Positions 1-61,326 of a stretch of DNA of 64,000 nt are shown one piece after another (position 1 is the stretch's first letter; the number at the start of each line of letters is the position of its first letter). A program made the translations under genes and the position numbers. Origin of the DNA: Siphonodentalium dalli (taxonomy: Eukaryota; Mollusca; Scaphopoda; Gadilida; Siphonodentaliidae); the NCBI GenBank assembly GCA_032622095.1, contig CP136068.1:127477989-127541988 (forward strand), in the 5' to 3' direction. The notes under the pieces were generated by a model, which searched no databases, was not told where the DNA came from, and was given only the letters and a program-made list of their open reading frames with translations.

Positions 1-3000
1 ATTGTATACGTGTGATGTATGTGGTGGTTGGTATCTGTTTGAGGAACTCGTTAATTTCGGATTCATTGTATACGTGTGGTGCATGTGGTGGTGGGTAACT
101 GTTTGAGGCACTCGTTAATTTCGGTTTCATTGTATACGTGTGATGTATGTGGTGGTTGGTATCTGTTTGAGGAACTCGTTAATTTCGGTTTCATTGTATA
201 CGTGTGATGCATGTGGTGGTGGGTAACTGTTTGAGGCAATCGTTAGTTTCGGTTTCATTGTATACGTGTGATGCATGTGGTGGTGGGTAACTGTTTGAGG
301 CAATCGTTAGTTTCGGTTTCATTGTATACGTGTGATGCATGTGGTGGTGGGTAACTGTTTGAGGCACTCGTTAATTTCGGTTTCATTGTATACGTGTGAT
401 GCATGTGGTGGTGGGTAACTGTTTGAGGCAATCGTTAGTTTCGGTTTCATTGTATACGTGTGATGCATGTGGTGGTGGGTAACTGTTTGAGGCAATCGTT
501 AGTTTCGGTTTCATTGTATACGTGTGATGCATGTGGTGGTGGGTAACTGTTTGAGGCAATCGTTAGTTTCGGTTTCATTGTATACGTGTGATGCATGTGG
601 TGGTGGGTAACTGTTTGAGGCAATCGTTAGTTTCGGTTTCATTGTATACGTGTGATGCATGTGGTGGTGGGTAACTGTTTGAGGCAATCGTTAGTTTCGG
701 TTTCATTGTATATTTGTGGTGCATCTGGTGGCGGTTGGTAACTGTTTGAGGCAATCGTTAGTTTCGGTTTCATTGTATACGTGTGATGCATGTGGTGGTG
801 GGTAACTGTTTGAGGCAATCGTTAGTTTCGGTTTCATTGTATACGTGTGATGCATGTGGTGGTGGGTAACTGTTTGAGGCAATCGTTAGTTTCGGTTTCA
901 TTGTATACGTGTGATGCATGTGGTGGTGGGTAACTGTTTGAGGCAATCGTTAGTTTCGGTTTCATTGTATACGCGTGGTGCATGTGGCGGTTGGTAACTG
1001 TTTGAGGCAATCGTTAGTTTCGGTTTCATTGTATACGTGTGATGCATGTGGTGGTGGGTAACTGTTTGATGCAATCGTTAGTTTCGGTTTCATTGTATAT
1101 TTGTGGTGCATCTGGTGGCGGTTGGTAACTGTTTGAGGCAATCGTTAGTTTCGGTTTCATTGTATACGCGTGGTGCATGTGGCGGTTGGTAACTGTTTGA
1201 GGCAATCGTTAGTTTCGGTTTCATTGTATACGTGTGATGCATGTGGTGGTGGGTAACTGTTTGAGGCAATCGTTAGTTTCGGTTTCATTGTATATTTGTG
1301 GTGCATCTGGTGGCGGTTGGTAACTGTTTGAGGCAATCGTTAGTTTCGGTTTCATTGTATAGGTGTGATGCATGTGGTGGTGGGTAACTGTTTGAGGCAA
1401 TCGTTAGTTTCGGTTTCATTGTATACGTGTGATGCATGTGGTGGTGGGTAACTGTTTGAGGCAATCGTTAGTTTCGGTTTCATTGTATACGTGTGATGCA
1501 TGTGGTGGTGGGTAACTGTTTGAGGCAATCGTTAGTTTCGGTTTCATTGTATACGTGTGATGCATGTGGTGGTGGGTAACTGTTTGAGGCAATCGTTAGT
1601 TTCGGTTTCATTGTATACGCGTGGTGCATGTGGCGGTTGGTAACTGTTTGAGGCAATCGTTAGTTTCGGTTTCATTGTATACGTGTGATGCATGTGGTGG
1701 TGGGTAACTGTTTGAGGCAATCGTTAGTTTCGGTTTCATTGTATATTTGTGGTGCATCTGGTGGCGGTTGGTAACTGTTTAAGGCAATCGTTAGTTTCGG
1801 TTTCATTGTATACGTGTGATGCATGTGGTGGTGGGTAACTGTTTGAGGCAATCGTTAGTTTCGGTTTCATTGTATAAGCGTGGTGCATGTGGCGGTTGGT
1901 AACTGTTTGAGGCAATCGTTAGTTTCGGTTTCATTGTATACGTGTGATGCATGTGGTGGTGGGTAACTGTTTGAGGCAATCGTTAGTTTCGGTTTCATTG
2001 TATATTTGTGGTGCATCTGGTGGCGGTTGGTAACTGTTTGAGGCAATCGTTAGTTTCGGTTTCATTGTATACGTGTGATGCATGTGGTGGTGGGTAACTG
2101 TTTGAGGCAATCGTTAGTTTCGGTTTCATTGTATACGTGTGATGCATGTGGTGGTGGGTAACTGTTTGAGGCAATCGTTAGTTTCGGTTTCATTGTATAC
2201 GTGTGATGCATGTGGTGGTTGGTAACTGTTTGAGGCACTCGTTAATTTCGGTTTCATTGTATACGTGTGGTGCATGTGGTGGTGGGTAACTGTTTGAGGC
2301 ACTCGTTAATTTCGGTTTCATTGTATACGTGTGGTGCATGTGGTGGTGGGTAACTGTTTGAGGCACTCGTTAATTTCGGTTTCATTGTATACGTGTGGTG
2401 CATGTGGTGGTGGGTAACTGTTTGAGGCACTCGTTAATTTCGGTTTCATTGTATACGTGTGGTGCATGTGGTGGTGGGTAACTGTTTGAGGCACTCGTTA
2501 ATTTAGGTTTCATTGTATACGCGTGGTGCATGTGGTGGTGGGTAACTGTTTGAGGCACTCGTTAATTTCGGTTTCATTGTATACGCGTGGTGCATGTGGT
2601 GGTTGGTAACTGTTTGAGGCACTCGTTAATTTCGGTTTCATTGTATACGTGTGATGTATGTGGTGGTTGGTATCTGTTTGAGGAACTCGTTAATTTCGGT
2701 TTCATTGTATACGTGTGGTGCATGTGGTGGTGGGTAACTGTTTGAGGCACTCGTTAATTTCGGTTTCATTGTATACGTGTGATGCATGTGGTGGTGGGTA
2801 AGTTTTTGAGGCACTCGTTAATTTCGGTTTCATTGTATACGTGTGGTGCATGTGGTGGTGGGTAACTGTTTGAGGCACTCGTTAATTTCGGTTTCATTGT
2901 ATACGTGTGATGCATGTGGTGGTGGGTAACTGTTTGAGGCACTCGTTAATTTCGGTTTCATTGTATACGTGTGGTGTATGTGGTGGTGGGTAACTGTTTG

Positions 3001-6000
3001 AGGCCCTCGTTAATTTCGGTTTCATTGTATACGTGTGGTGCATGTGGTGGTGGGTAACTGTTTGAGGCACTCGTTAATTTCGGTTTCATTGTATACGTGT
3101 GGTGCATGTGGTGGTTGGTAACTGTTTGAGGCACTCGTTAATTTCGGTTTCATTGTATACGTGTGATGCATGTGGTGGTGGGTAACTGTTTGAGGCACTC
3201 GTTAATTTCGGTTTCATTGTATACGTGTGGTGTATGTGGTGGTGGGTAACTGTTTGAGGCACTCGTTAATTTCGGTTTCATTGTATACGTGTGATGCATG
3301 TGGTGGTGGGTAACTGTTTGAGGCACTCGTTAATTTCGGTTTCATTGTATACGTGTGATGCATGTGGTGGTGGGTAACTGTTTGAGGCACTCGTTAGTTT
3401 CGGTTTCATTGTATACGTGTGGTGCATGTGGTGGTTGGTAACTGTTTGAGGCACTCGTTAATTTCGGTTTAATTGTGTACATGTGGTGTATGTGGTGGTG
3501 GGTAACTGTTTGAGGCACTCGTTAGTTTCGGTTTCATTGTATACGTGTGGTGCATGTGGTGGTTGGTAACTGTTTGAGGCACTCGTTAATTTCGGTTTAA
3601 TTGTATACGTGTGGTGCATGTGGTGATGGGTAACTGTTTGAGGCACTCGTTCATTTCGGTTTCATTGTATACGTGTGGTGCATGTGGTGGTTGGTAACTG
3701 TTTGAGGCAATCGTTAGTTTCGGTTTCATTGTATACGTGTGATGCATGTGGTGGTGGGTAACCGTTTGAGGCACTCGTTAATTTCGGTTTCATTGTATAC
3801 GTGTGGTGCATGTGGTGGTGGGTATCTGTTTGAGGCACTCGATAATTTCGGTTTCATTGTATATGTGTGGTGCATGTGGTGGTTGGTAACTGTTTGAGGA
3901 ACTCGTTAATTTCGGTTTCATTGTATACGTGTGGTGCATGTGGTGGTGGGTAACTGTTTGAGGCAATCGTTAGTTTCGGTTTCATTGTATACGTGTGATG
4001 CATGTGGTGGTTGGTAACTGTTTGAGGCACTCGTTAATTTCGGTTTCATTGTATACGTGTGATGCATGTGGTGGTTGGTAACTGTTTGAGGCACTCGTTA
4101 ATTTCGGTTTCATTGTATACGTGTGATGCATGTGGTGGTGGTTGGTAACCGTTTGAGGCACTCGTTAATTTCGGTTTCATTGTATATGTCTGGTGCATGT
4201 GGTGGTGGGTATCTGTTTGAGGCACTCGATAATTTCGGTTTCATTGTATATGTGTGGTGCATGTGGTGGTTGGTAACTGTTTGAGGAACTCGTTAATTTC
4301 GGTTTCATTGTATACGTGTGGTGCATGTGGTGGTGGGTAACTGTTTGAGGCACTCGTTAATTTCGGTTTCATTGTATACGTGTGGTGCATGTGGTGGTGG
4401 GTAACTGTTTGAGGCACTCGTTAATTTCGGTTTCATTGTATATGTGTGGTGCATGTGGTGGTGGGTATCTGTTTGAGGCACTCGATAATTTCGGTTTCAT
4501 TGTATACGTGTGGTGCATGTGGTGGTGGGTAACTGTTTGAGGCACTCGTTAATTTCGGTTTCATTGTATATGTGTGGTGCATGTGGTGGTGGGTATCTGT
4601 TTGAGGCACTCGATAATTTCGGTTTCATTGTATATATGTGGTGTATGTGGTGGTGGGTAACTGTTTGAGGCACTCATTAATTTCGGTTTCATTGTATATG
4701 TGTGGTGCATGTGGTGGTGGGTATCTGTTTGAGGCACTCGATAATTTCGGTTTCATTGTATATGTGTGGTGCATGTGGTGGTTGGTAACTGTTTGAGGAA
4801 CTCGTTAATTTCGGTTTCATCGTATACGTGTGGTGCATGTGGTGGTTGGTAACTGTTTGAGGAACTCGTTAATTTCGGTTTAATTGTATACGTGTGGTGC
4901 ATGTGGTGGTGGGTAACTGTTTGAGGAACTCGTTAATTTCGGTTTAATTGTATATGTGTGGTGCATGTGGTGGTGGTGGGTAACTGTTTGAGGCACTCGT
5001 TAATTTCGGTTTCATTGTATACGTGTGGTGCATGTGGTGGTGGGTATATGTTTGAGGCACTCGTTAATTTCGGTTTCATTGTGTACGTGTGATGCATGTG
5101 GTGATGGGTAACTGTTTGAGGCACTCGTTAATTTCGGTTTCATTGTATACGTGTGGTGTATGTGGTGGTGGGTAACTGTTTGAGGCACTCGTTAATTTCG
5201 GTTTCATTGTATACGTGTGATGCATGTGGTGGTGGGTAACTGTTCGAGGCACTCGTTAATTTCGGTTTCATTGTATATGTGTGGTGCATGTGGTGGTGGG
5301 TATATGTTTGAGGCACTCGTTATATTCGGTTTCATTGTATACGTGTGATGCATGTGGTGGTTGGTAACTGTTTGAGGAACTCGTTAATTTCGGTTTCATT
5401 GTATATGTCTGGTGCATGTGGTGGTTGGTAACTGTTTGAGGCACTCGTTAGTTTCGGTTTCATTGTATATGTCTGGTGCATGTGGTGGTTGGTAACTGTT
5501 TGAGGAACTCGTTAATTTCGGTTTCATTGTATACGCGTGGTGCATGTGGTGGTTGGTAACTGTTTGAGGCACTCGTTAATTTCGGTTTCATTGTATATTT
5601 GTGGTGCATCTGGTGGCGGTTGGTAACTGTTTGAGGCACTCGTTAATTTCGGTTTCATTGTATACGTGTGGTGCATGTGGTGGTGTGTATCTGTTTGAGG
5701 CACTCGTTAGTTTCGGTTTCATTGTATACGTGTGGTGCATGTGGTGGTTGGTAACTGTTTGAGGCACTCGTTAATTTCGGTTTAATTGTGTACATGTGGT
5801 GTATGTGGTGGTGGGTAACTGTTTGAGGCACTCGTTAGTTTCGGTTTCATTGTATACGTGTGGTGCATGTGGTGGTTGGTAACTGTTTGAGGCACTCGTT
5901 AATTTCGGTTTCATTGTATACGTGTGGTGCATGTGGTGGTGGGTATCTGTTTGAGGCACTCGATAATTTCGGTTTCATTGTATATGTGTGGTGCATGTGG

Positions 6001-9000
6001 TGGTTGGTAACTGTTTGAGGAACTCGTTAATTTCGGTTTCATTGTATACGTGTGGTGCATGTGGTGGTGGGTAACTGTTTGAGGCAATCGTTAGTTTCGG
6101 TTTCATTGTATACGTGTGATGCATGTGGTGGTTGGTAACTGTTTGAGGCACTCGTTAATTTCGGTTTCATTGTATACGTGTGATGCATGTGGTGGTTGGT
6201 AACTGTTTGAGGCACTCGTTAATTTCGGTTTCATTGTATACGTGTGATGCATGTGGTGGTGGTTGGTAACCGTTTGAGGCACTCGTTAATTTCGGTTTCA
6301 TTGTATATGTCTGGTGCATGTGGTGGTGGGTATCTGTTTGAGGCACTCGATAATTTCGGTTTCATTGTATATGTGTGGTGCATGTTGTGGTTGGTAACTG
6401 TTTGAGGAACTCGTTAATTTCGGTTTCATTGTATACGTGTGGTGCATGTGGTGGTGGGTAACTGTTTGAGGCACTCGTTAATTTCGGTTTCATTGTATAC
6501 GTGTGGTGCATGTGGTGGTGGGTAACTGTTTGAGGCACTCGTTAATTTCGGTTTCATTGTATATGTGTGGTGCATGTGGTGGTGGGTATCTGTTTGAGGC
6601 ACTCGATAATTTCGGTTTCATTGTATACGTGTGGTGCATGTGGTGGTGGGTAACTGTTTGAGGCACTCGTTAATTTCGGTTTCATTGTATATGTGTGGTG
6701 CATGTGGTGGTGGGTATCTGTTTGAGGCACTCGATAATTTCGGTTTCATTGTATATATGTGGTGTATGTGGTGGTGGGTAACTGTTTGAGGCACTCATTA
6801 ATTTCGGTTTCATTGTATATGTGTGGTGCATGTGGTGGTGGGTATCTGTTTGAGGCACTCGATAATTTCGGTTTCATTGTATATGTGTGGTGCATGTGGT
6901 GGTTGGTAACTGTTTGAGGAACTCGTTAATTTCGGTTTCATCGTATACGTGTGGTGCATGTGGTGGTTGGTAACTGTTTGAGGAACTCGTTAATTTCGGT
7001 TTAATTGTATATGTGTGGTGCATGTGGTGGTGGTGGGTAACTGTTTGAGGCACTCGTTAATTTCGGTTTCATTGTATACGTGTGGTGCATGTGGTGGTGG
7101 GTATATGTTTGAGGCACTCGTTAATTTCGGTTTCATTGTGTACGTGTGATGCATGTGGTGATGGGTAACTGTTCGAGGCACTCGTTAATTTCGGTTTCAT
7201 TGTATATGTGTGGTGCATGTGGTGGTGGGTATATGTTTGAGGCACTCGTTAATTTCGGTTTCATTGTATACGTGTGATGCATGTGGTGGTGGGTAACTGT
7301 TCGAGGCACTCGTTAATTTCGGTTTCATTGTATATGTGTGGTGCATGTGGTGGTGGGTATATGTTTGAGGCACTCGTTACTTTCGGTTTCATTGTATACG
7401 TGTGATGCATGTGGTGGTTGGTAACTGTTTGAGGAACTCGTTAATTTCGGTTTCATTGTATATGTCTGGTGCATGTGGTGGTTGGTAACTGTTTGAGGCA
7501 CTCGTTAGTTTCGGTTTCATTGTATATGTCTGGTGCATGTGGTGGTTGGTAACTGTTTGAGGAACTCGTTAATTTCGGTTTCATTGTATACGCGTGGTGC
7601 ATGTGGTGGTTGGTAACTGTTTGAGGCACTCGTTAATTTCGGTTTCATTGTATATTTGTGGTGCATCTGGTGGCGGTTGGTAACTGTTTGAGGCACTCGT
7701 TAATTTCGGTTTCATTGTATACGTGTGGTGCATGTGGTGGTGGGTATCTGTTTGAGGCACTCGATAATTTCGGTTTCATTGTGTACGCGTGGTGCATGTG
7801 GTGGTGGGTAACTGTTTGAGGCACTCGTTAATTTCGGTTTCATTGTGTACGCGTGGTGCATGTGGTGGTGGGTAACTGTTTGAGGCACTCGATAATTTCG
7901 GTTTCATTGTGTACGCGTGGTGCATGTGGTGATGGGTAACTGTTTGAGGCACTCGTTAATTTCGGTTTCATTGTGTACGCGTGGTGCATGTGGTGGTGGG
8001 TAACTGTTTGAGGCACTCGATAATTTCGGTTTCATTGTGTACGCGTGGTGCATGTGGTGGTGGGTAACTGTTTGAGGCACTCGATAATTTCGGTTTCATT
8101 GTGTACGCGTGGTGCATGTGGTGGTGGGTAACTGTTTGAGGCACTCGATAATTTCGGTTTCATTGTGTACGCGTGGTGCATGTGGTGGTGGGTAACTGTT
8201 TGAGGCACTCGTTAATTTCGGTTTCATTGTATACGTGTGGTGCATGTGGTGGTGGGTATCTGTTTGAGGCACTCGATAATTTCGGTTTCATTGTATACGT
8301 GTGGTGCATGTGGTGGTGGTGGTGGGTAAATGTTTGATGTGCTCGTTAGTTTCGGTTTCATTGTATACGTGTGGTGCATGTGGTGGTGGGTAACTGTTTG
8401 AGGCACTCGTTAATTTCGGTTTCATTGTATACGTGTGATGCATGTGGTGGTTGGTAACTGTTTGAGGAACTCGTTAATTTCGGTTTCATTGTATACGTGT
8501 GGTGCATGTGGTGTTGGTGGTGGGTAAATGTTTGATGTGCTCGTTAGTTTCGGTTTCATTGTATACGTGTGGTGCATGTGGCGGTTGGTAACTGTTTGAG
8601 GCACTCGTTAATTTCGGTTTCATTGTATACGTGTGGTGCATGTGGTGGTGCGTAACTGTTTGAGGCACTCGTTAATTTCGGTTTCATTGTGTACGTGTGG
8701 TGCATGTGGTGGTGGGTAACTGTTTGAGGCCCTCGTTAATTTCGGTTTCATTGTATACGTGTGGTGCATGTGGTGGTGGTGGTGGTGGGTAACTGTTTGA
8801 GGCACTCGTTAATTTCGGTTTCATTGTATACGTGTGGTGCATGTGGTGGTGGGTAACTGTTTGAGGCACTCGTTAATTTCGGTTTCATTGTATACGTGTG
8901 GTGCATGTGGTGATGGGTAACTGTTTGAGGCCCTCGTTAATTTCGGTTTCATTGTATACGTGTGGTGCATGTGGTGGTGGTGGTGGTGGGTAACTGTTTG

Positions 9001-10000
9001 AGGCACTCGTTAATTTCGGTTTCATTGTATACGTGTGGTGCATGTGGTGGTGGGTAACTGTTTGAGGCACTCGTTAATTTCGGTTTCATTGTATACGTGT
9101 GGTGCATGTGGTGGTGGGTAACTGTTTGAGGCACTCGTTAATTTCGGTTTCATTGTATACGTGTGGTGCATGTGGTGGTGGGTAACTGTTTGAGGCACTC
9201 GTTAATTTCGGTTTCATTGTATATGTCTGGTGCATGTGGTGGTGGGTAACTGTTTGAGGCCCTCGTTAATTTCGGTTTCATTGTATATGTGTGGAGCATG
9301 AGATGATGGGTAACTGTTTGAGGCACTCGTTAATTTCGGTTTCATTGTATACGTGTTGTGCATGTGGTGGTGGGTAATTGTTTGAGGCCCTCGTTAATTT
9401 CGGTTTCATTGTATACGTGTGGTGTATGTGGTGGTGGGTATCTGTTTGAGGCACTCGTTAATTTCGGTTTCATTGTATACGTGTGGTGCATGTGGTGGTG
9501 GGTAACTGTTTGAGGCAATCGTTAATTCGGTTTCATTGTATACGTGTGGTGCATGTGGTGGTGGGTAACTGTTTGAGGCACTCGTTAATTTCGGTTTCAT
9601 CGTATACGTGTGGTGCATGTGGTGGTGGGTAACTGTTTGAGGCAATCGTTAATTCGGTTTCATTGTATACGTCTGGTGCATGTGGTGGTGGGTAACTGTT
9701 TGAGGCAATCGTTAATTCGGTTTCATTGTATACGTGTGGTGCATGTGGTGATGGGTAACTGTTTGAGGCACTCGTTAATTTCGGTTTCATTGTATACGCG
9801 TGGTGCATGTGGTGGTGGGTAACTGATTGAGTCACTCGTTAATTTCGGTTTAATTGTATATGTGTGGTGCATGTGGTGGTGGGTAACTGTTTGAGGCACT
9901 CGTTAATTTCGGTTTCATTGTATACGTGTGGTGTATGTGGTGGTGCATGTGGTGGTGGGTAAGTGTTTGAGTCACTCGTTAATTTCGGTTTAATTGTACG
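1..10000. repeat. 64-bp minisatellite array (about 156 copies)
   Basis: Head-to-tail copies of a 64-bp unit fill this stretch and continue past the left edge. The + strand is GT-rich, with a core like TGCATGTGGTGGTGGGTAAC followed by TGTTTGAGGCA and TCGTTAATTTCGG. Subtypes are regionally clustered: aatcgttagtttcgg units dominate up to ~2.2 kb, cactcgttaatttcgg units after that, and tcgataatttcgg units at 7.7-8.2 kb. A recurring variant (tatatttgtggtgcatctggtggcgg) appears near 710, 1098, 1290, 1742, 2002, 5590 and 7650. Some units carry extra gtg triplets (8.3-9.0 kb) or a 1-bp loss (9.5-9.7 kb). Because 64 is not a multiple of 3, overlapping repetitive ORFs arise in all frames. They are artefacts, not proteins. 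Confidence 0.98.
3388..7770. repeat. Higher-order tandem duplication inside the 64-bp array
   Basis: The ordered series of variant units at about 3,388-5,700 is repeated at about 5,701-7,770. Private markers recur in the same order: aattgtgtacatgtggtgtatg, a gtggtggtggttggtaacc unit, a catcgtatac unit, a tatatatgtggtgtatg unit and the tatgtctgg units. The offset between copies steps from 2,313 to 2,121 to 2,057 bp. These steps are exactly 3 and then 1 monomers, so whole 64-bp units were lost after the duplication. Confidence 0.85.
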
Positions 10001-12571: not shown

Positions 12572-14776
12572 TTAAAGGTCCTCATTTTAATATTCATTAT
12601 GACCTGACCTCGATTCTAACACTGAGCGGTGATTTGCTGTTTCTACTATGTCAGTCATGGAAAGGTCAGGTCACAATGAATATTAAAATTAGGAACTGTG
12701 TGACTTGACAATTTTTTTTTAAGTTGGAATTATCGACAGATTTCTCCTCTATCTAAATTGTTTACTGACAATGTGTTGATTTGTATGAGTAAATAAATTA
12801 TTAGCCGATAAGAAATCACTAAGTTCCAGATAATTAGTTGATCGTTTGACCGATTTTTAATGATAGTAAACTGTATGGGTGGTGAATTTAGAGACACATG
12901 TCGGCCATTGCTTGCTGAGCCGGATCAATCCTAAAAAATACACTCTCCGGAGACAATATTCGGTGGTTAAAATGTTATCAAATGCAACGTGTATGAATGT
13001 TTCTGATGGGAGTTTGTGGTATTTATTGAAAGATGAATTCTTTGCCGATCCATCCGTGTATATATCGTTATCATTACTGGGGTGAATGGGCTAAATTTGT
13101 GCGACTCCCGAGTGATGGTGAAACGTTGAATTTCTACAGTGACCCTTGTCTATATAATGTTCCATTAACGCGAAGAAGGCGCGTATATAGAGGCGGCGTA
13201 TATGGGCAGTGCAAAAGGGGGGTGGACGGCGGAGCGCGTTACAGCCCCCTGTGGTTTCCTTTTAAAAATAAATCCACAAGTGTACGACAGGGCTATCCCA
13301 CAGCCAAATTTGATCTGGAAAAACCCAACTCTACAGCAGCTAGTTAAATAAATTTCCCGCTCACAAAAATCCATTCCCCCATTCATTCACCAGTTTAAAT
13401 TATTTAGATATGATGTACAAATCAAATAAACGCGATGTCATCCTTTAATAACGTGTCGCATGCATCAGGTGCAGGTCATTCTCCAGTTACCTTCACCTTT
13501 ACCTTCACCACGGTGTACTCGCTCCCCGACTCTGGAACACATTTAGCTCCCTGATTCCTATAGAGGTATGGTGGTCAGTTTTATCTTGATTGTGAACCCA
13601 TGACTCATCTCATCTCATCTCAGCCAAATTGTTCATTGATCAACAGACATGGCATGAACATCTTCGAACATAAAACATTATTTATTGGTAGTTGCCTTCT
13701 TAATGTAAATAATCATTAAATTTCACAAATAAAGAATAACTAAGTCTCCTCTAATGATTTTGAGATATGATATCATGGATATATGAAGCTCACTTTTGAA
13801 ATTTGTTTTATTTTACAGTAGTTCTTGGTACCTGAAAACTTAAATTTTAAATATTTTTCATGCCATAAAAGTAAAGTAATTGAGGTTATAATTTCCAAAT
13901 GGTCGATGGTTCTTAAATATTGTGTCACAATAATCGCTTGTACCAAATTTCACAAAGAAATTCCTAACTAATTTTGAGAAAATCCATTTTGAAATACCAG
14001 GAAATTTTTAGCAAAACGTGCGTCTGACCCTTAACGGACAGACCATTTGAATACATGTGCAGTGGATAGCTATGATCGGACACATGTGAGATAATTAAAA
14101 TTCAACAATAAGTGTAATGATATTGGCTATATCTGTATAGTATAGACTTCACATGTTCATGACATGATTCACTAATCAAATAAAGGAAGTAATGTTTAAA
14201 GGCCCATTTAATTTTCGAGTCACCAATTAATTTTTACAGTGCCTTGAAACACAGGGGCCTGTAACGCGCTCCGCTGTCCGCCCCCCTTTTGCGATCGATC
14301 AAATATAGCTCATTCACACCAGTAATGCCACAGATATAACCAAGGATGTATCGGCGAAGAATTCATCTTTCAATCAATACCACAAACTCCCATCAAAACC
14401 ATTCATATACATAGCATTTGATAATTTTTTAACCACCGAATATTGTCTCCGAAGACCGTAAATTTTCATTTTGATCCGGCTCAGAACAAAATGTCGGAAA
14501 TCTTTCTTGTCGGCTAATAATTTATTTACTCATACAAATCAACAGATCGTCAGTAAACAATTTCTATAGAGGAGAAATCTGTCGATAATTCCAACTTTAA
14601 AACAAAAATTTGTCAAGTCACAAGTAGAAACAGCCAATCACCGCTCAGTGTTAGAATCGAGGTCAGGTCATAATGAATATTAAAATGAGGACCTCGATTC
14701 TAACAATGAGCGGTGATTGGCTGTTTCTACTATCTCAGTCATGGAAAGGTCATGAATATTAAAATTAGGAACTTTG
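12572..14776. mobile_element. Long inverted-repeat element (~2.2 kb), non-autonomous
   Basis: The left arm (about 12,572-13,260) reads in reverse complement in the right arm (about 14,262-14,690). Shared blocks include ggtcctcattttaatattcatt, the ttatcgacagatttctcctct block, gagtaaataaattattagc, gacaatattcggtggttaa, gatgaattctttgccgat and ggcggagcgcgttacag. About 90 bp of outer sequence (tgagcggtgatt...ggctgtttctac...aaaggtca) is also present as an extra direct copy at 14,692-14,776. The ~1 kb centre has no transposase ORF, so the structure is a fold-back or long-TIR element mobilised in trans, or the remains of nested insertions. Confidence 0.75.
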
Positions 14777-28361: not shown

Positions 28362-28811
28362 TATGTCACCCGCCATATCAAATCCAGTCGTAAGTCGGGA
28401 TTTTTTTTACCCTGTGCCAATGCATTCTCTTATATATGCGAGTCGACCATAGGTCGCCTCGCATATATATAAGAGAATGCATTGGCCTAACAATTTTTTA
28501 TCACTTTTTTTTAAATAAATGTTTCTTACAATTTTTAGGACATAAAATAAAAAAACATCCATTACCCTGCAGGGAGCCCCACACATATATAGAAGCATAT
28601 AGAAGAGTGTCGTCTGCTCATGTTTGTCTGGGGCTCTGTATGGGTGAAATTATAAAATTGTTAAAGAATACAAGAAATAATTGTTAGGCCAATGCATTCT
28701 CTTATATATGCGAGGCGACCTATGGTCGACTCGCATATATAAGATAATGCATTGGCACAGGGTAAACAAAATCCCGACTTACGACTGGATTTGATATGGC
28801 TGGTCACATAT
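28362..28811 (+). mobile_element. MITE with subterminal hairpins, complete copy
   Basis: ~45-bp TIRs (tgtcacccgccatatcaaat...gtaagtcgggattt and its complement) enclose two copies of the ccaatgcattctc hairpin, one just inside each end. The ~170-bp core contains taccctgcagggagcccc and gtcgtctgctcatg. The same organisation recurs at 54,814-55,570 with the core inverted. The flanks are TATA-rich, and a TA-type target duplication is possible. Confidence 0.85.
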
Positions 28812-45110: not shown

Positions 45111-45120
45111 CATTCTGACC
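45111..45120 (+). repeat. Left target-site duplication CATTCTGACC
   Basis: Abuts the left tip directly and is identical to 52,268-52,277. Confidence 0.75.
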
Positions 45121-45216
45121 GGTGTGACTAAACACCGCCCGGACCAGCCCGGACCAGCCCGGACCAGCCCGGACAAGCCCGGACGAGCCCGGACCAGCCC
45201 GGACCAGCCCGGACCC

Positions 45217-47635
45217 CCCATATGGACTATATGAGTGATTGTAAGGGCAATATTAGTGCAGGGGTGTCATGGAAACCCACTCAGGGTCGCTATTAACCCT
45301 CAAAATGCCGGCATCGGCGAAAATGTTCGCCGCGAAATGAAGCTAACAGCCCGGACCGCCCCTGCTGCGTCCAGGTGGGATTTTAGTATCCATACCTGTG
45401 CGGGGGTGTTAATGAAACCCAAATACGCACGGAGAGTGGTCAAGGTCAAACGGAAGTGCCGCTTATTAACCCCTAAACTTCCCAGATTCAGCCAGAATTA
45501 AAAAATTGCGCCCCCAATAAACAAATTCACAGCCCGGACCCCCTTAATGTCCTCGTACTTCTAATAACTCCTTACATATGTGTTGTGGAACTACCCTCGA
45601 CTAGACTCAAGAAGATTCAAGGGCGAGTCGCCCACGAATGCCTAGCAATTAACCCCCAAAATGCCGCCATCGCCGATTATGTTTACACATAACGACGCTG
45701 ACAGCCCGGACCATCCAAGTCCAGCCCGGACCCCCCATATGGACTATATGAGTGATTTTAATGGCAATATAAGTGCAGGGGTGTCATGGAAACCCACTCA
45801 GGGTTGCTATTAACCCTCAAAATGCCGGCATCGGCGAAAATGTTCGCCGTGAAATGAAGCTAACAGCCCGGACCGCCCCTGCTGCGTCCAGGTATGATTT
45901 TAGTATCGATTCATGTACGAGGGTGTTAATGAAACCCAAATACGCACGGAGAGTGGTCAAGGTCAAACGGAAGTGCCGCTTATTAACCCCTAAACTTCCC
46001 AGATTCAGCCAGAATTAAAAAATTGCGCCCCCAATAAACAAATTCACAGCCCGGACCCCCTTAATGTCCTCGTACTTCTAATAACTCCTTACATATGTGT
46101 TGTGGAACTACCCTCGACTTGACTCAAGAAGATTCAAGGGCGAGTCGCCCACGAATGCCTGGCAATTAACCCCCAAAATGCCGCCATCGCCGATTATGTT
46201 TACCCATAACGACGCTGACAGCCCGGACCATCCAAGTCCAGCCCGGACCCCCCATATGGACTATATGAGTGATTTTAATGGCAATATAAGTGCAGGGGTG
46301 TCATGGAAACCCACTCAGGGTTGCTATTAACCCTCAAAATGCCGGCATCGGCGAAAATGTTCGCCGTGAAATGAAGCTAACAGCCCGGACCGCCCCTGCT
46401 GCGTCCAGGTATGATTTTAGTATCGATTCATGTACGAGGGTGTTAATGAAACCCAAATACGCACGGAGAGTGGTCAAGGTCAAACGGAAGTGCCGCTTAT
46501 TAACCCCTAAACTTCCCAGATTCAGCCAAAATTAAAAAATTGCGCCCCCAATAAACAAATTCACAGCCCGGACCCCCTTAATGACCTCGTACTTCTAATA
46601 ACTCCTTACATATGTGTTGTGGAACTACCCTCGACTACACTCACGAAGATACAAGGGCGAGTCGCCCACGAATGCCTGGCAATTAACCCCCAAAATGCCG
46701 CCATCGCCGATTATGTTTACCGATAACGACGCTGACAGCCCGGACCCGCCCGGCCCAGCCCGGACCCCCCATATGGACTATATGAGTGATTGTAAGGCCA
46801 ATATAAGTGCAGGGATGTCATGGAAACCCACTCAGGGTCGCTATTAACCCTCAAAATGCCGGCATCGGCGAAAATGTTCGCCGTGAAATGAAGCTAACAG
46901 CCCGGACCGCCCCTGCTGCGTCCAGTTATGATTTTAGTATCCATACCTGTGCGAGGGTGTTAATGAAACCCAAATACGCACGGAGAGTGGTCAAGGTCAA
47001 ACGGAAGTGCCGCTTATTAACCCCTAAACTTCCCAGATTCAGCCAGAATTAAAAAATTGCGCCCCCAATAAACAAATTCACAGCCCGGACCCCCTTAATG
47101 TCCTCGTACTTCTAATAACTCCTTACATATGTGTTGTGGGACTACCCTCGACTACACTCACGAAGATACAAGGGCGAGTCGCCCACGAATGCCTGGCAAT
47201 TAACCCCCAAAATGCCGCCATCGCCGATTATGTTTACCGATAACGACGCTGACAGCCCGGACCCGCCCGGCCCATCCCAGTCCAGCCCGGACCCCCCATA
47301 TGGACTATATGAGTGATTGTAAGGCCAATATAAGTGCAGGGGTGTCATGGAAACCCACTCAGGGTCGCTATTAACCCTCAAAATGCCGGCATCGGCGAAA
47401 ATGTTCGCCGCGAAATGAAGCTAACAGCCCGGACCGCCCCTGCTGCGTCCAGGTGGGATTTTAGTATCCATACATGTGCGAGGGTGTTAATGAAACCCAA
47501 ATACGCCCGGAGAGTGGTCAAGGTCAAACGGAAGTGCCGCTTATTAACCCCTAAACTTCCCAGATTCAGCCAGAATTTAAAAATTGCGCCCCCAATAAAC
47601 AAATGTCCTCGTACTTCTAATAACTCCTTACATAT
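45217..47635 (+). repeat. 517-bp satellite, left arm (about 4.7 units)
   Basis: Each 517-bp unit contains three related ~172-bp monomers. Each begins cagcccggacc and carries a version of attaaccc..aaa.tgccg.catcg.cga..atgtt before the next one. Landmark spacings are 517, 517 and 527 bp. The 81-codon and 77-codon frames found in each unit start at GTG or TTG and shift frame between units, so they are not genes. Confidence 0.95.
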
Positions 47636-47704
47636 ACGTCTTGAGTCTAGTTGAGGGTAGTTCCACAACACATATGTAAGGAGTTATTAGAAGTACGAGG
47701 ACAT
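47603..47704. repeat. Central switch hairpin of the fold-back element
   Basis: Arms of 33 bp (atgtcctcgtacttctaata...catat and its complement) surround a 36-bp loop. The loop already reads in right-arm orientation, so the breakpoint is at ~47,636-47,640. The last left-arm unit lacks ~22 bp (ttcacagcccggaccccctt). Confidence 0.9.
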
Positions 47705-50700
47705 TAAGGGGGTCCGGGCTGTGAATTTGTTTATTGGGGGCGCAATTTTTTAATTCTGGCTGAATCTGGGAAGTTTATGGGTTAATAAGCGGCACTTCCG
47801 TTTGACCTTGACCACTCTCCGTGCGTATTTGGGTTTCATTAACACCCCCGCACAGGTATGGATACTAAAATCCCACCTGGACGCAGCAGGGGCGGTCCGG
47901 GCTGTTAGCTTCAATTCGCGGCAAACATTTTCGCCGATGCCGGCATTTTGAGGATTAATAGCGACCCTGAGTGGGTTTCCATGACACCCCTGCACTTATA
48001 TTGGCCTTACAATCACTCATATAGTCCATATGGGGGGTCCGGGCTGGACTGGGATGGGCCGGGCTGTCAGCGTCGTTATCGGTAAACATAATCGGCGATG
48101 GCGGCATTTTGGGGGTTAATTGCCAGGCATTCGTGGGCGATTCGCCCTTGTATCTTCGTGAGTGTAGTCGAGGGTAGTTCCACAACACATATGTAAGGAG
48201 TTATTAGAAGTACGAGGACATTAAGGGGGTCCGGGCTGTGAATTTGTTTATTGGGGGCGCAATTTTTTAATTCTGGCTGAATCTGGGAAGTTTAGGGGTT
48301 AATAAGCGGCACTTCCGTTTGACCTTGACCACTCTCCGTGCGTATTTGGGTTTCATTAACACCCCCGCACAGGTATGGATACTAAAATCCCACCTGGACG
48401 CAGCAGGGGCGGTCCGGGCTGTTAGCTTCATTTCGCGGCGAACATTTTCGCCGATGCCGGCATTTTGAGGGTTAATAGCGACCCTGAGTGGGTTTCCATG
48501 ACACCCCTGCACTTATATTGCCATTAAAATCACTCATATAGTCCATATGGGAGGTCCGGGCTGGACTTGGATGGTCCGGGCTGTCAGCGTCGTTATGGGT
48601 AAACATAATCGGCGATGGCGGCATTTTGGGGGTTAATTGCCAGGCATTCGTGGGCGACTCGCCCTTGAATCTTCTTGAGTCTAGTTGAGGGTAGTTTCAC
48701 AACACATATGTAAGGAGTTATTAGAAGTACGAGGAAATTAAGGGGGTCCTGGCTGTGAATTTGTTTATTGGGGGCGCAATTTTTTAATTCTGGCTGAATC
48801 TGGGAAGTTTAGGGGTTAATAAGCGGCACTTCCGTTTGACCTTGACCACTCTCCGTGCGTATTTGGGTTTCATTAACACCCCCGCACAGGTATGGATACT
48901 AAAATCCCACCTGGACGCAGCAGGGGCGGTCCGGGCTGTTAGCTTCATTTCGCGGCGAACATTTTCGCCGATGCCGGCATTTTGAGGATTAATAGCGACC
49001 CTGAGTGGGTTTCCATGACACCCCTGCACTTATATTGGCCTTACAATCACTCATATAGTCCATATGGGGGGTCCGGGCTGGACTGGGATGGGCCGGGCTG
49101 TCAGCGTCGTTATCGGTAAACATAATCGGCGATGGCGGCATTTTGGGGGTTAATTGCCAGGCATTCGTGGGCGATTCGCCCTTGTATCTTCGTGAGTGTA
49201 GTCGAGGGTAGTTCCACAACACATATGTAAGGAGTTATTAGAAGTACGAGGACATTAAGGGGGTCCGGGCTGTGAATTTGTTTATTGGGGGCGCAATTTT
49301 TTAATTCTGGCTGAATCTGGGAAGTTTAGGGGTTAATAAGCGGCACTTCCGTTTGACCTTGACCACTCTCCGTGCGTATTTGGGTTTCATTAACACCCCC
49401 GCACAGGTATGGATACTAAAATCCCACCTGGACGCAGCAGGGGCGGTCCGGGCTGTTAGCTTCATTTCGCGGCGAACATTTTCGCCGATGCCGGCATTTT
49501 GAGGGTTAATAGCGACCCTGAGTGGGTTTCCATGACACCCCTGCACTTATATTGCCATTAAAATCACTCATATAGTCCATATGGGAGGTCCGGGCTGGAC
49601 TTGGATGGTCCGGGCTGTCAGCGTCGTTATGGGTAAACATAATCGGCGATGGCGGCATTTTGGGGGTTAATTGCCAGGCATTCGTGGGCGACTCGCCCTT
49701 GAATCTTCTTGAGTCTAGTTGAGGGTAGTTTCACAACACATATGTAAGGAGTTATTAGAAGTACGAGGAAATTAAGGGGGTCCTGGCTGTGAATTTGTTT
49801 ATTGGGGGCGCAATTTTTTAATTCTGGCTGAATCTGGGAAGTTTAGGGGTTAATAAGCGGCACTTCCGTTTGACCTTGACCACTCTCCGTGCGTATTTGG
49901 GTTTCATTAACACCCCCGCACAGGTATGGATACTAAAATCCCACCTGGACGCAGCAGGGGCGGTCCGGGCTGTTAGCTTCATTTCGCGGCGAACATTTTC
50001 GCCGATGCCGGCATTTTGAGGGTTAATAGCGACCCTGAGTGGGTTTCCATGACACCCCTGCACTTATATTGTTATTAAGATCACTCATATAGTCCATATG
50101 GGGGGTCCGGGATGGACTTGGATGGTCCGGGCTGTCAGCGTCGTTATGGGTAAACATAATCGGCGATGGCGGCATTTTGGGTGTTAATTGCCAGGCATTC
50201 GTGGGCGACTCGCCCTTGAATCTTCTTGAGTCTAGTTGAGGGTAGTTCCACAACACATATGTAAGGAGTTATTAGAAGTACGAGGACATTAAGGGGGTCC
50301 GGGCTGTGAATTTGTTTATTGGGGGCGCAATTTTTTAATTCTGGCTGAATCTGGGAAGTTTAGGGGTTAATAAGCGGCACTTCCGTTTGACCTTGACAAC
50401 TCTCCGTGCGTATTTGGGTTTCATTAACACCCCCGCACAGGTATGGATACTAAAATCCCACCTGGACGCAGCAGGGGCGGTCCGGGCTGTTAGCTTCATT
50501 TCGCGGCGAACATTTTTGCCGATGCCGGCATTTTGAGTGTTAATAGCGACCCTGAGTGGATTTCCATGACACCCCTGCACTTATATTGCCATTAAAATCA
50601 CTCATATAGTCCATATGGGGGGTCCGGGCTGGACTTGGATGGTCCGGGCTGTCAGCGTCGTTATGGGTAAACATAATCGGCGATGGCGGCATTTTGGGGG

Positions 50701-52160
50701 TTAATTGCCAGGCATTCGTGGGCGACTCGCCCTTGAATCTTCTTGAGTCTAGTTGAGGGTAGTTCCACAACACATATGTAAGGAGTTATTAGAAGTACGA
50801 GGACATTAAGGGGGTCCGGGCTGTGAATTTGTTTATTGGGGGCGCAATTTTTAAATTCTGGCTGAATCTGGGAAGTTTAGGGGTTAATAAGCGGCACTTC
50901 CGTTTGACCTTGACCACTCTCCGTGCGTATTTGGGTTTCATTAACACCCCCGCACAGGTATGGATACTAAAATCCCACCTGGACGCAGCAGGGGCGGTCC
51001 GGGCTGTTAGCTTCATTTCGCGGCGAACATTTTCGCCGATGCCGGCATTTTGAGGGTTAATAGCGACCCTGAGTGGGTTTCCATGACACCCCTGCACTTA
51101 TATTGCCATTAAAATCACTCATATAGTCCATATGGGGGGTCCGGGCTGGACTTGGATGGTCCGGGCTGTCAGCGTCGTTATGGGTAAACATAATCGGCGA
51201 TGGCGGCATTTTGGGGGTTAATTGCCAGGCATTCGTGGGCGACTCGCCCTTGAATCTTCTTGAGTCTAGTTGAGGGTAGTTCCACAACACATATGTAAGG
51301 AGTTATTAGAAGTACGAGGACATTAAGGGGGTCCGGGCTGTGAATTTGTTTATTGGGGGGCGCAATTTTTTAATTCTGGCTGAATCTGGGAAGTTTAGGG
51401 GTTAATAAGCGGCACTTCCGTTTGACCTTGACCACTCTCCGTGCGTAATTGGGTTTCATTAACACCCCCGCACAGGTATGGATACTAAAATCCCACCTGG
51501 ACGCAGCAGGGGCGGTCCGGGCTGTTAGCTTCATTTCGCGGCGAACATTTTCGCCGATGCCGGCATTTTGAGGGTTAATAGCGACCCTGAGTGGGTTTCC
51601 ATGACACCCCTGCCATTAAAATCACTCATATAGTCCATATGGGGGGTCCGGGCTGGACTTGGATGGTCCGGGCTGTCAGCGTCGTTATGGGTAAACATAA
51701 TCGGCGATGGCGGCATTTTGGGGGTTAATTGCCAGGCATTCGTGGGCGACTCGACCTTGAATCTTCTTGAGTCTAGTTGAGGGTAGTTCCACAACACATA
51801 TGTAAGGAGTTATCAGAAGTACGAGGACATTAAGGGGGTCCGGGCTGTGAATTTGTTTATTGGGGGCGCAATTTTTTAATTCTGGCTGAATCTGGGAAGT
51901 TTAGGGGTTAATAAGCGGCACTTCCGTTTGACCTTGACCACTCTCCGTGCGTATTTGGGTTTCATTAACACCCCCGCACAGGTATGGATACTAAAATCCC
52001 ACCTGGACGCAGCAGGGGCGGTCCGGGCTGTTAGCTTCATTTCGCGGCGAACATTTTCGCCGATGCCGGCATTTTGAGGGTTAATAGCGACCCTGAGTGG
52101 GTTTCCATGACACCCCTGCACTTATATTGCCCTTACAATCACTCATATAGTCCATATGGG
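47641..52160 (-). repeat. 517-bp satellite, right arm (about 8.7 units, inverted)
   Basis: Same unit as the left arm on the - strand. Two unit types alternate between 47.9 and 50 kb: one with cggtaaacat and gggatgggcc, the other with gggtaaacat, ggaaattaagggggtcctggc and gtagtttcac. This gives a 1,034-bp dimer present at least twice, nearly identical. A unit at ~51.6 kb has lost ~10 bp (cacttatatt). Confidence 0.95.
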
Positions 52161-52267
52161 GGGTCCGGGCTGGTCCGGGCTGGTCCGGGCTGGTCCGGGC
52201 TTGTCCGGGCTGGTCCGGGCTGGTCCGGGCTGGTCCGGGCTGGTCCGGGCGGTGTTTAGTCACACCC

Positions 52268-52277
52268 CATTCTGACC
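52268..52277 (+). repeat. Right target-site duplication CATTCTGACC
   Basis: Separated from the right tip by one C. It reads in the same direction as the left copy, so it is a direct repeat and not part of the inverted repeat. Confidence 0.75.
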
Positions 52278-60783: not shown

Positions 60784-61007
60784 GGTGTGGCTAAACACCG
60801 CCCGGACCAGCCCGGACCGCCCCTGTGGAGTATAGGGGTGATTTTAGTGTCAATATATTTTCAGGGGTGTCATGGAAACCCACTCACGCACGGACAGGGG
60901 TCGCGATCACACAGAAATGTCGCTATTAACCCTCAAAATGACGGCATCGGCGAATATGTTCGTCGCGAATGAAGCTAACAGCCCGGACCGCCCCTGTTGC
61001 GTATAGG
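60784..61007 (+). mobile_element. Single-ended relative of the fold-back element
   Basis: Starts with ggtgtggctaaacacc and gcccggaccagcccggacc, then a diverged monomer (ggggtgtcatggaaaccc, ctattaaccctcaaaatgac, ggcatcggcgaatatgtt) and a second cagcccggaccgcccctg. There is no inverted end, so it is truncated or a basal simple form. Confidence 0.8.
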
Positions 61008-61113: not shown

Positions 61114-61326
61114 GAGTAATGCTCTAATTAATCGACCTCTTAACCAAAGCAGAATTATGGGTAACTTTTCAGGATTTAGTCGGAAATATGGCTTGTTGCC
61201 ATTCATCGGAAAGCTCTCGGGGAGAGCTTTCCGATGAATGGCAACAAGCCATATTTCCGACTAAATCCTGAAAAGTTACCCATAATTCTGCTTTGGTTAA
61301 GAGGTCGATTAATTAGAGCATTGCTG
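61114..61326. mobile_element. Palindromic pogo/Tigger-like MITE, copy 3 (complete)
   Basis: A 213-bp near-perfect palindrome with both arms complete, flanked by TA. The first base of the left tip is mutated (GAGTAATGC instead of CAGTAATGC). The centre is ctctcggggagag. Confidence 0.88.

Follow-up and report, generated by a model that had tools for sequence, protein, structure and literature searches.

Evidence that a fold-back element with trimeric 517-bp arms in the scaphopod Siphonodentalium dalli is a non-autonomous Mutator-type transposon

Inverted ends made of tandem repeats are known from the sea-urchin TU and Drosophila FB elements, a plan that the element reported here resembles. This element (45120-52267) lies in a 64,000-nucleotide stretch of contig CP136068.1 of the scaphopod Siphonodentalium dalli, hereafter the window, and together with its bracketing direct repeats occupies positions 45111-52277. 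An initial annotation of the window described inverted tips, tip-proximal 10-bp repeats and 517-bp repeats that reverse direction once, all enclosed by a direct repeat, and every one of these features was found in place. By searching the whole genome for related copies, we conclude with a probability of roughly 0.93 that the window copy is a non-autonomous DNA transposon of the Mutator superfamily (Mutator-like elements, MULEs) with fold-back ends. Its family is new, of the known Mutator/Foldback kind, and has Tetris, Tm1 and Muta1 as its nearest described relatives; word searches (not sequence searches) of openly licensed PubMed Central full texts returned no report of it.

Tetris of Drosophila virilis is a fold-back element that shares with our family long inverted ends, a variable number of tandem repeats, 8-10 bp target duplications and non-coding copies; its arms have already been connected in print with satellite DNA, Tetris having given rise to a satellite (PMC4079207). 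In contrast to the Siphonodentalium family, whose trimeric 517-bp unit reaches the 10-bp repeats, Tetris has ~220-bp repeats with flanking and middle domains, and the sections of its description cited here give no transposase for it and tie it to a satellite, whereas our family has transposase-bearing relatives and showed no free satellite array in the sample studied (PMC4079207). Tm1 of root-knot nematodes, also of the Mutator/Foldback type, resembles our family in its composite ends, variable tandem repeats, 8-10 bp duplications and asymmetric extreme ends with short non-matching motifs, but its repeats are ~14 bp long, its end motifs measure 7 bp instead of one base, and its transposase is a FLYWCH-MULE enzyme of the Phantom group (PMC3169594). 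Muta1 of Aedes aegypti, a MULE that its authors class as a type 2 Foldback element, shares with our family a tip that is an imperfect palindrome, short tandem repeats in subterminal position, target duplications (8 or 9 bp in Muta1) and many derivatives of varying repeat number. Its transposase has two exons, as that of our family apparently does, but its ends are 145 bp and its repeats 12 bp long, and the cited portions of its description mention no 517-bp higher-order arrays (PMC5225508). Plant MULEs, likewise of Mutator type, can have long ends in tandem, but in two or three copies without long arrays, and are not described as fold-back in the part of the report used here (PMC3310237). According to the cited part of a further source, MULE target-site duplications measure 8-11 bp, and the MULEs of metazoan genomes are little known (PMC6446971). 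What sets the Siphonodentalium family itself apart is that its arms consist of 517-bp trimers, that 18 of 23 copies have no middle and that the ends differ by a one-base asymmetry.

A search of the 2.23-Gb genome (9 contigs) for further tips, as proposed in the initial annotation, gave 881 exact copies (436 and 445) and not one of the reversed-letter control; the tip pattern is therefore not due to chance. Among the first 100 listed tips, all on contig C1, 24 convergent pairs are separated by under 12 kb (from 178 up to 10,935 bp), and just one other neighbouring pair is within that distance. We read 27 two-tipped elements, namely 21 of these 24 pairs, five from loci with unusual tips and the window copy. 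The base immediately outside both tips is the same on the plus strand in all 27 (12 C/C, 15 G/G), compared with 342 of 702 combinations when ends were swapped between elements, and for this reason it is counted as the element's own, each element having one C-end and one G-end. Genome-wide, the base preceding the tip is C in 464 of 881 cases, T in 28 and A in 10, hence G in 379. The convergent pairs on C1 (the 24 closer than 12 kb and three up to 33 kb) combine one C-end with one G-end in 27 of 27, G being assumed wherever no C, A or T was listed before the tip; 21 elements are common to these two sets of 27.

Perfect target duplications flank 19 of the 27 elements, including the window copy (13 of 8 bp, five of 9 bp and one of 10 bp), whereas direct repeats of at least 6 bp were found in 0 of 702 combinations with flanks swapped between elements. 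The family thus shows 8-10 bp duplications within the 8-11 bp span of Mutator elements. The expectation that each copy would have its own repeat of 9-10 bp holds for these 19 as regards the presence of a repeat, the commonest length being 8 bp. In the window, the 10-bp sequence CATTCTGACC is found at 45111-45120 and 52268-52277 and nowhere else on either strand. We rejected its interpretation as a chance match: it is composed of the 9-bp CATTCTGAC and the element's own C. Given the one extra end base in all 27 elements, the duplication reported earlier as 10 bp is real and 9 bp long, and the tenth matching base, the C at 52277, is a coincidence.

Sites without the element were recognized for three other copies. 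For L010 and L021, unoccupied repeat copies within the window (near 28491-28498 and 13661-13668, respectively) align across the junction and contain a single 8-bp target, the relative of L021 being only about 76-81% alike. The third copy, L039, is inserted in a long interspersed nuclear element (LINE), the frame of which is uninterrupted once the element, both of its end bases and one copy of the 9-bp target are taken out. Of the 40 places matched by the joined 150-nt site (44 candidates), 39 cross the junction, four of these with 100% identity; the remaining one is the right half of L039 itself. Separately, comparison of the left flank of L009 with an unoccupied LINE copy shows an inverted target piece (TAGTGAT against ATCACTA) and no direct duplication.

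A transposase gene came to light in the interior of the most widely spaced of the close tip pairs. This 10.9-kb element on C1 (L049), which has a 9-bp duplication CAAACATTA and end bases C/C, holds three open stretches of the gene beside A-B-C arrays of the 517-bp unit. With a 200-amino-acid stretch as query, 150 of 388 candidate matches were scored, among them six copies with an identity of 94-100%, four on C1 and one each on contigs C5 and C6. The four copies on C1 with at least 94% identity lie 1.0-7.5 kb from an exact tip, and for 18 other C1 matches (37-75% identity) the nearest exact tip is at least 36 kb away. In the copy on contig C6 (L052) there are two open frames, 478 and 412 amino acids long, the latter matching the Pfam MULE family PF10551 (6.9e-7; 30.1 bits, above the 27.6 cut-off) and, below the cut-offs, Transposase_mut PF00872 (1.3e-3) and the NCBIfam IS256 profile (1.4e-5). 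The 478-amino-acid frame matched no profile in Pfam or NCBIfam, and the 412-amino-acid frame matched no PDB sequence at E up to 1.

The L052 locus contains a right arm and tip, and its right flank implied a target copy ATATTAAT. A genome-wide search for this sequence with the tip 0-2 bases behind it gave a single hit, C6:122620057, which is on the contig of L052 and 7.9 kb upstream of that locus. The left end located from this predicted target copy has 10-bp repeats and monomers A and B and defines an element of 17,404 bp with end bases G/G, in which a MULE/IS256-type transposase lies between the same ends. A transposase bearing these tips, which the initial annotation had suggested looking for, is thus present inside both L049 and the L052 element. 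Neither L052 frame matched a FLYWCH domain at E up to 0.1, and we did not file the family in Phantom, the transposases of which have this domain (PMC3169594), although a table in the part of PMC6446971 cited here also allows none. Since the same tips and arms are found in transposase-encoding elements, the window copy is assigned as a non-autonomous Mutator/Foldback element, and the duplications and unoccupied sites agree with the earlier proposal of a fold-back transposon inserted as a unit.

Several observations weigh against this assignment. A clean duplication is missing in eight of the 27 elements: L009, L012, L013, L014, L017, L019, L023 and L045. Among these, the duplication of L019 is perfect but for one mismatch, an 18-bp repeat offset by one base is present in L017, and L013 and L014 are near-identical loci. 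The flanks of the window copy had no match among the sequences compared, so that its own empty site was not seen, and the copy itself has no transposase gene. The L049 stretch falls under the Pfam cut-off (22.2 vs 27.6 bits). Three of the four near-tip transposase copies on C1 lie within 560 kb, which makes their independence doubtful. The candidate D, D, E residues of the 412-amino-acid frame (in GVDRTF, GSDEEKAL and NNNACESIN) were picked by eye from known motifs, and the 17.4-kb element was read except for ~7.7 kb between its left end and L052. Finally, in the 10 loci with AAGCC-type 10-bp repeats and in L001, neither the open frames nor a comparison with the transposase described above revealed a transposase, and none was recognized in four of their frames run against Pfam.

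Two further clusters of related sequences were observed. In C1:196275741-196846173, a region of ~570 kb, a long array of the family is accompanied by three copies with a transposase gene. MULE-domain matches ~5,080 bp apart at C1:214712637, 214717712 and 214722793 may form a tandem array of another MULE family. Of the PF10551 matches (150 scored of 813 candidates), 86 were compared with a first set of tips, and none came nearer to them than 16 kb.

In the mechanism that we propose, a transposase from the enzyme-bearing relatives would bind the tip and probably also the repeated motif GCCCGGACC, with which the 10-bp repeats and every monomer start. It would then excise the element and insert it elsewhere with an 8-10 bp target duplication, in a cut-and-paste manner. 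The enzyme-bearing form consists of tip, 10-bp repeats, A-B-C array, transposase gene (apparently of two exons), inverted array and tip, and the window copy probably arose from it by loss of the middle, which joined the left array straight to the right one.

The arms were analysed in 23 elements (370 monomers compared), with approximate arm edges assigned by BLAST. Monomers are present in both arms in opposite directions in 20 of them, L013, L014 and L015 having no recognizable monomer in the left arm. The arms are separated by at most eight bases in 18 elements; no two of these direct left-to-right joins fall at the same position, and each has 0-8 extra bases or 0-7 bases shared by both arms. 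The family has the long inverted ends of tandem repeats, variable in number and with little or no middle, that characterize the Foldback class. L020 and L039 retain 1,017 and 595 bases of other sequence between the arms; the former segment corresponds, at 98%, to 1.1 kb from the 3' interior of the transposase-bearing element, and the latter had no match among the other sequences compared. L049 lacks the upstream part of the gene beside its left array. This pattern fits what repeated independent internal deletions would leave. The likeliest deletion route, with about even odds on what is generally known of such transposons, would be gap repair that follows excision, is interrupted and ends with the closing of the break by end joining.

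Alternatively, the fold-back form, the origin of which is all that this proposal concerns, may have been produced by copying one arm into the other through hairpin or snap-back synthesis, as near-symmetrical junctions such as that of L003 (A cut at 38, GGCC, A cut at 38) would suggest. We regard this route as unlikely. The difference between repeats of opposite arms about equals that within the same arm (0.035/0.035 for A, 0.047/0.047 for B and 0.036/0.040 for C) and is slightly greater between elements (0.046, 0.056 and 0.047, respectively), so the arms are not fresh mirror copies. The unit number is also unequal between arms, and the part of the transposase element's middle retained in L020 argues for loss of the middle.

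Target duplications of 8 bp are usual for hAT and P elements too, which speaks for a fold-back element moved by one of these superfamilies with the MULE gene as a passenger. The fold-back form does arise in several superfamilies, Galileo being of the P type according to the cited part of PMC4079207. This explanation is nevertheless very improbable, as both the 10.9-kb and 17.4-kb elements have the MULE gene enclosed by the same tips and next to the same arrays, the duplication lengths vary from 8 to 10 bp as in Tm1 and Tetris, and the L052 frames gave no hAT, P-type or THAP match at E up to 0.1, THAP being the domain of the P-type transposase expected of a Galileo-like element.

The initial annotation had further proposed that the element is built from satellite DNA and could link transposition to satellite birth. 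The exact 21-base core of monomer B has 1081 genome copies, the first 100 of which form 20 clusters on C1. An inward exact tip lies within 6 kb of 18 clusters (93 of the 100 listed copies), and one of the two tipless clusters was read: it begins inside 10-bp repeats and resembles a truncated end. The largest cluster among the listed copies has at least 20 copies in the same direction over 13.6 kb, with a tip 3.8 kb past the last of them, and no free satellite array was shown among these 100 copies. With 18 of these 20 clusters adjoining a tip, the repeats appear to belong to the transposon, and neither a construction from satellite DNA nor satellite birth is supported. An ordinary satellite array with one inversion and chance direct repeats at its edges, for which the satellite-like arms with their three-monomer higher-order unit and the long same-direction cluster might speak, is the least credible of the alternatives and was rejected on the tips beside the clusters and the three empty sites, which refute it for the family, the duplications absent from the mixed control and the transposase within the same ends also standing against it.

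The fold-back transposon in the window has the features listed in Table 1. Its 517-bp unit contains three mutually related monomers, A of 142 bp, B of 183 bp and C of 172 bp, with alignment z-scores of 6.3-8.6 against 200 letter shuffles; the arm repeat is therefore a trimeric higher-order repeat. The motif GCCCGGAC, which starts every monomer and the 10-bp repeats, occurs 25 times in the left arm (all forward), 38 times in the right arm (all reversed) and four times in the remaining window, and the repeat direction switches a single time, at the arm-to-arm junction. By their alternating monomer identities, 48065-49078 and 49099-50111 of the right arm resemble a two-unit tandem duplication. 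A possible, weak resemblance of the tip to a motif shared by monomers A and B was also observed.

Table 1. Features of the fold-back element and its flanking duplications (window positions).
Feature	Position	Strand	Remarks
Left target-site duplication	45111..45119	+	CATTCTGAC, 9 bp
Terminal base C of element (C-end)	45120	+	Plus-strand base outside both tips identical in 27/27 elements
Left tip	45121..45136	+	GGTGTGACTAAACACC, 16 bp; 5-bp inverted repeat GGTGT/ACACC flanking 6 bases
Left 10-bp tip-proximal repeats	45137..45215	+	GCCCGGACCA, 7.9 copies
Left arm, 517-bp A-B-C units	45207..47635	+	~4.7 units, final C partial
Arm-to-arm junction	47636..47638	.	3 bases; C monomer cut at position 48 / inverted C cut at 81
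Right arm, inverted A-B-C units	47639..52170	-	~8.8 units
Right 10-bp tip-proximal repeats	52162..52250	-	8.9 copies
Right tip	52251..52266	-	Reverse complement of GGTGTGACTAAACACC
Terminal base C of element (G-end read inward)	52267	+	
Right target-site duplication	52268..52276	+	CATTCTGAC, 9 bp

The family also comprises subfamilies with other arms. The tip lacks a following G in 167 of the 881 copies, and 20 loci picked from these as a first search for the enzyme include the 10 with AAGCC-type 10-bp repeats and 10 with GCCCGG-type ends, most of them diverged. L046 of the AAGCC subfamily has 185-bp repeats, 8-bp duplications were found in L040 and L046, and the C/G end rule is kept in L040, L045 and L046. 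The AAGCC element at L046:101-5118, with its 8-bp duplication, has a middle with inverted coding-looking segments on both sides, possibly captured. At 60784-61006 the window itself has a second tip (one mismatch), behind which lie 10-bp repeats and a monomer with a likeness of 72% to A and 75% to B; this end belongs to a related, diverged subfamily of the GCCCGG type. It suggests that the trimer may have grown from one monomer, and a single 170-bp monomer is seen in diverged subfamilies. An inverted repeat with arms of ~100 bp was noted by eye around 61120-61325.

The pairing of a C-end with a G-end holds across subfamilies with unlike arms. We speculate that the requirement for different ends could be a pairing rule of the transposase, not a matter of inheritance, and that alongside it selection for more transposase-binding copies could have driven a single 170-bp monomer to the trimer, a proposal to which we give a low probability. 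If there is such a pairing rule, one base pair would distinguish left from right and bar the joining of like ends, as a minimal counterpart of the 12/23 rule.

Elsewhere in the window, positions 1-9998 are occupied by a 64-bp tandem array (~154 copies, 93% matches) that may extend leftward. An open frame at 10417-11394 matches the sulfotransferase family PF03567 (8.8e-29), and a LINE-like open frame of 1163 amino acids at 40080-43568 matches both a reverse transcriptase family (PF00078, 6.8e-38) and an endonuclease family (PF03372, 9.5e-6).

For Tetris and similar fold-back families no enzyme is known, whereas here the bounded elements, their deletion derivatives, empty sites and transposase genes are available in one assembly, which makes the origin of fold-back arms and of satellite-like arrays testable. 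Copies of this kind could be misfiled by repeat finders as inverted satellite arrays. The trimeric unit of a transposon arm, together with its single-monomer relatives, provides a useful comparison for higher-order repeats elsewhere.

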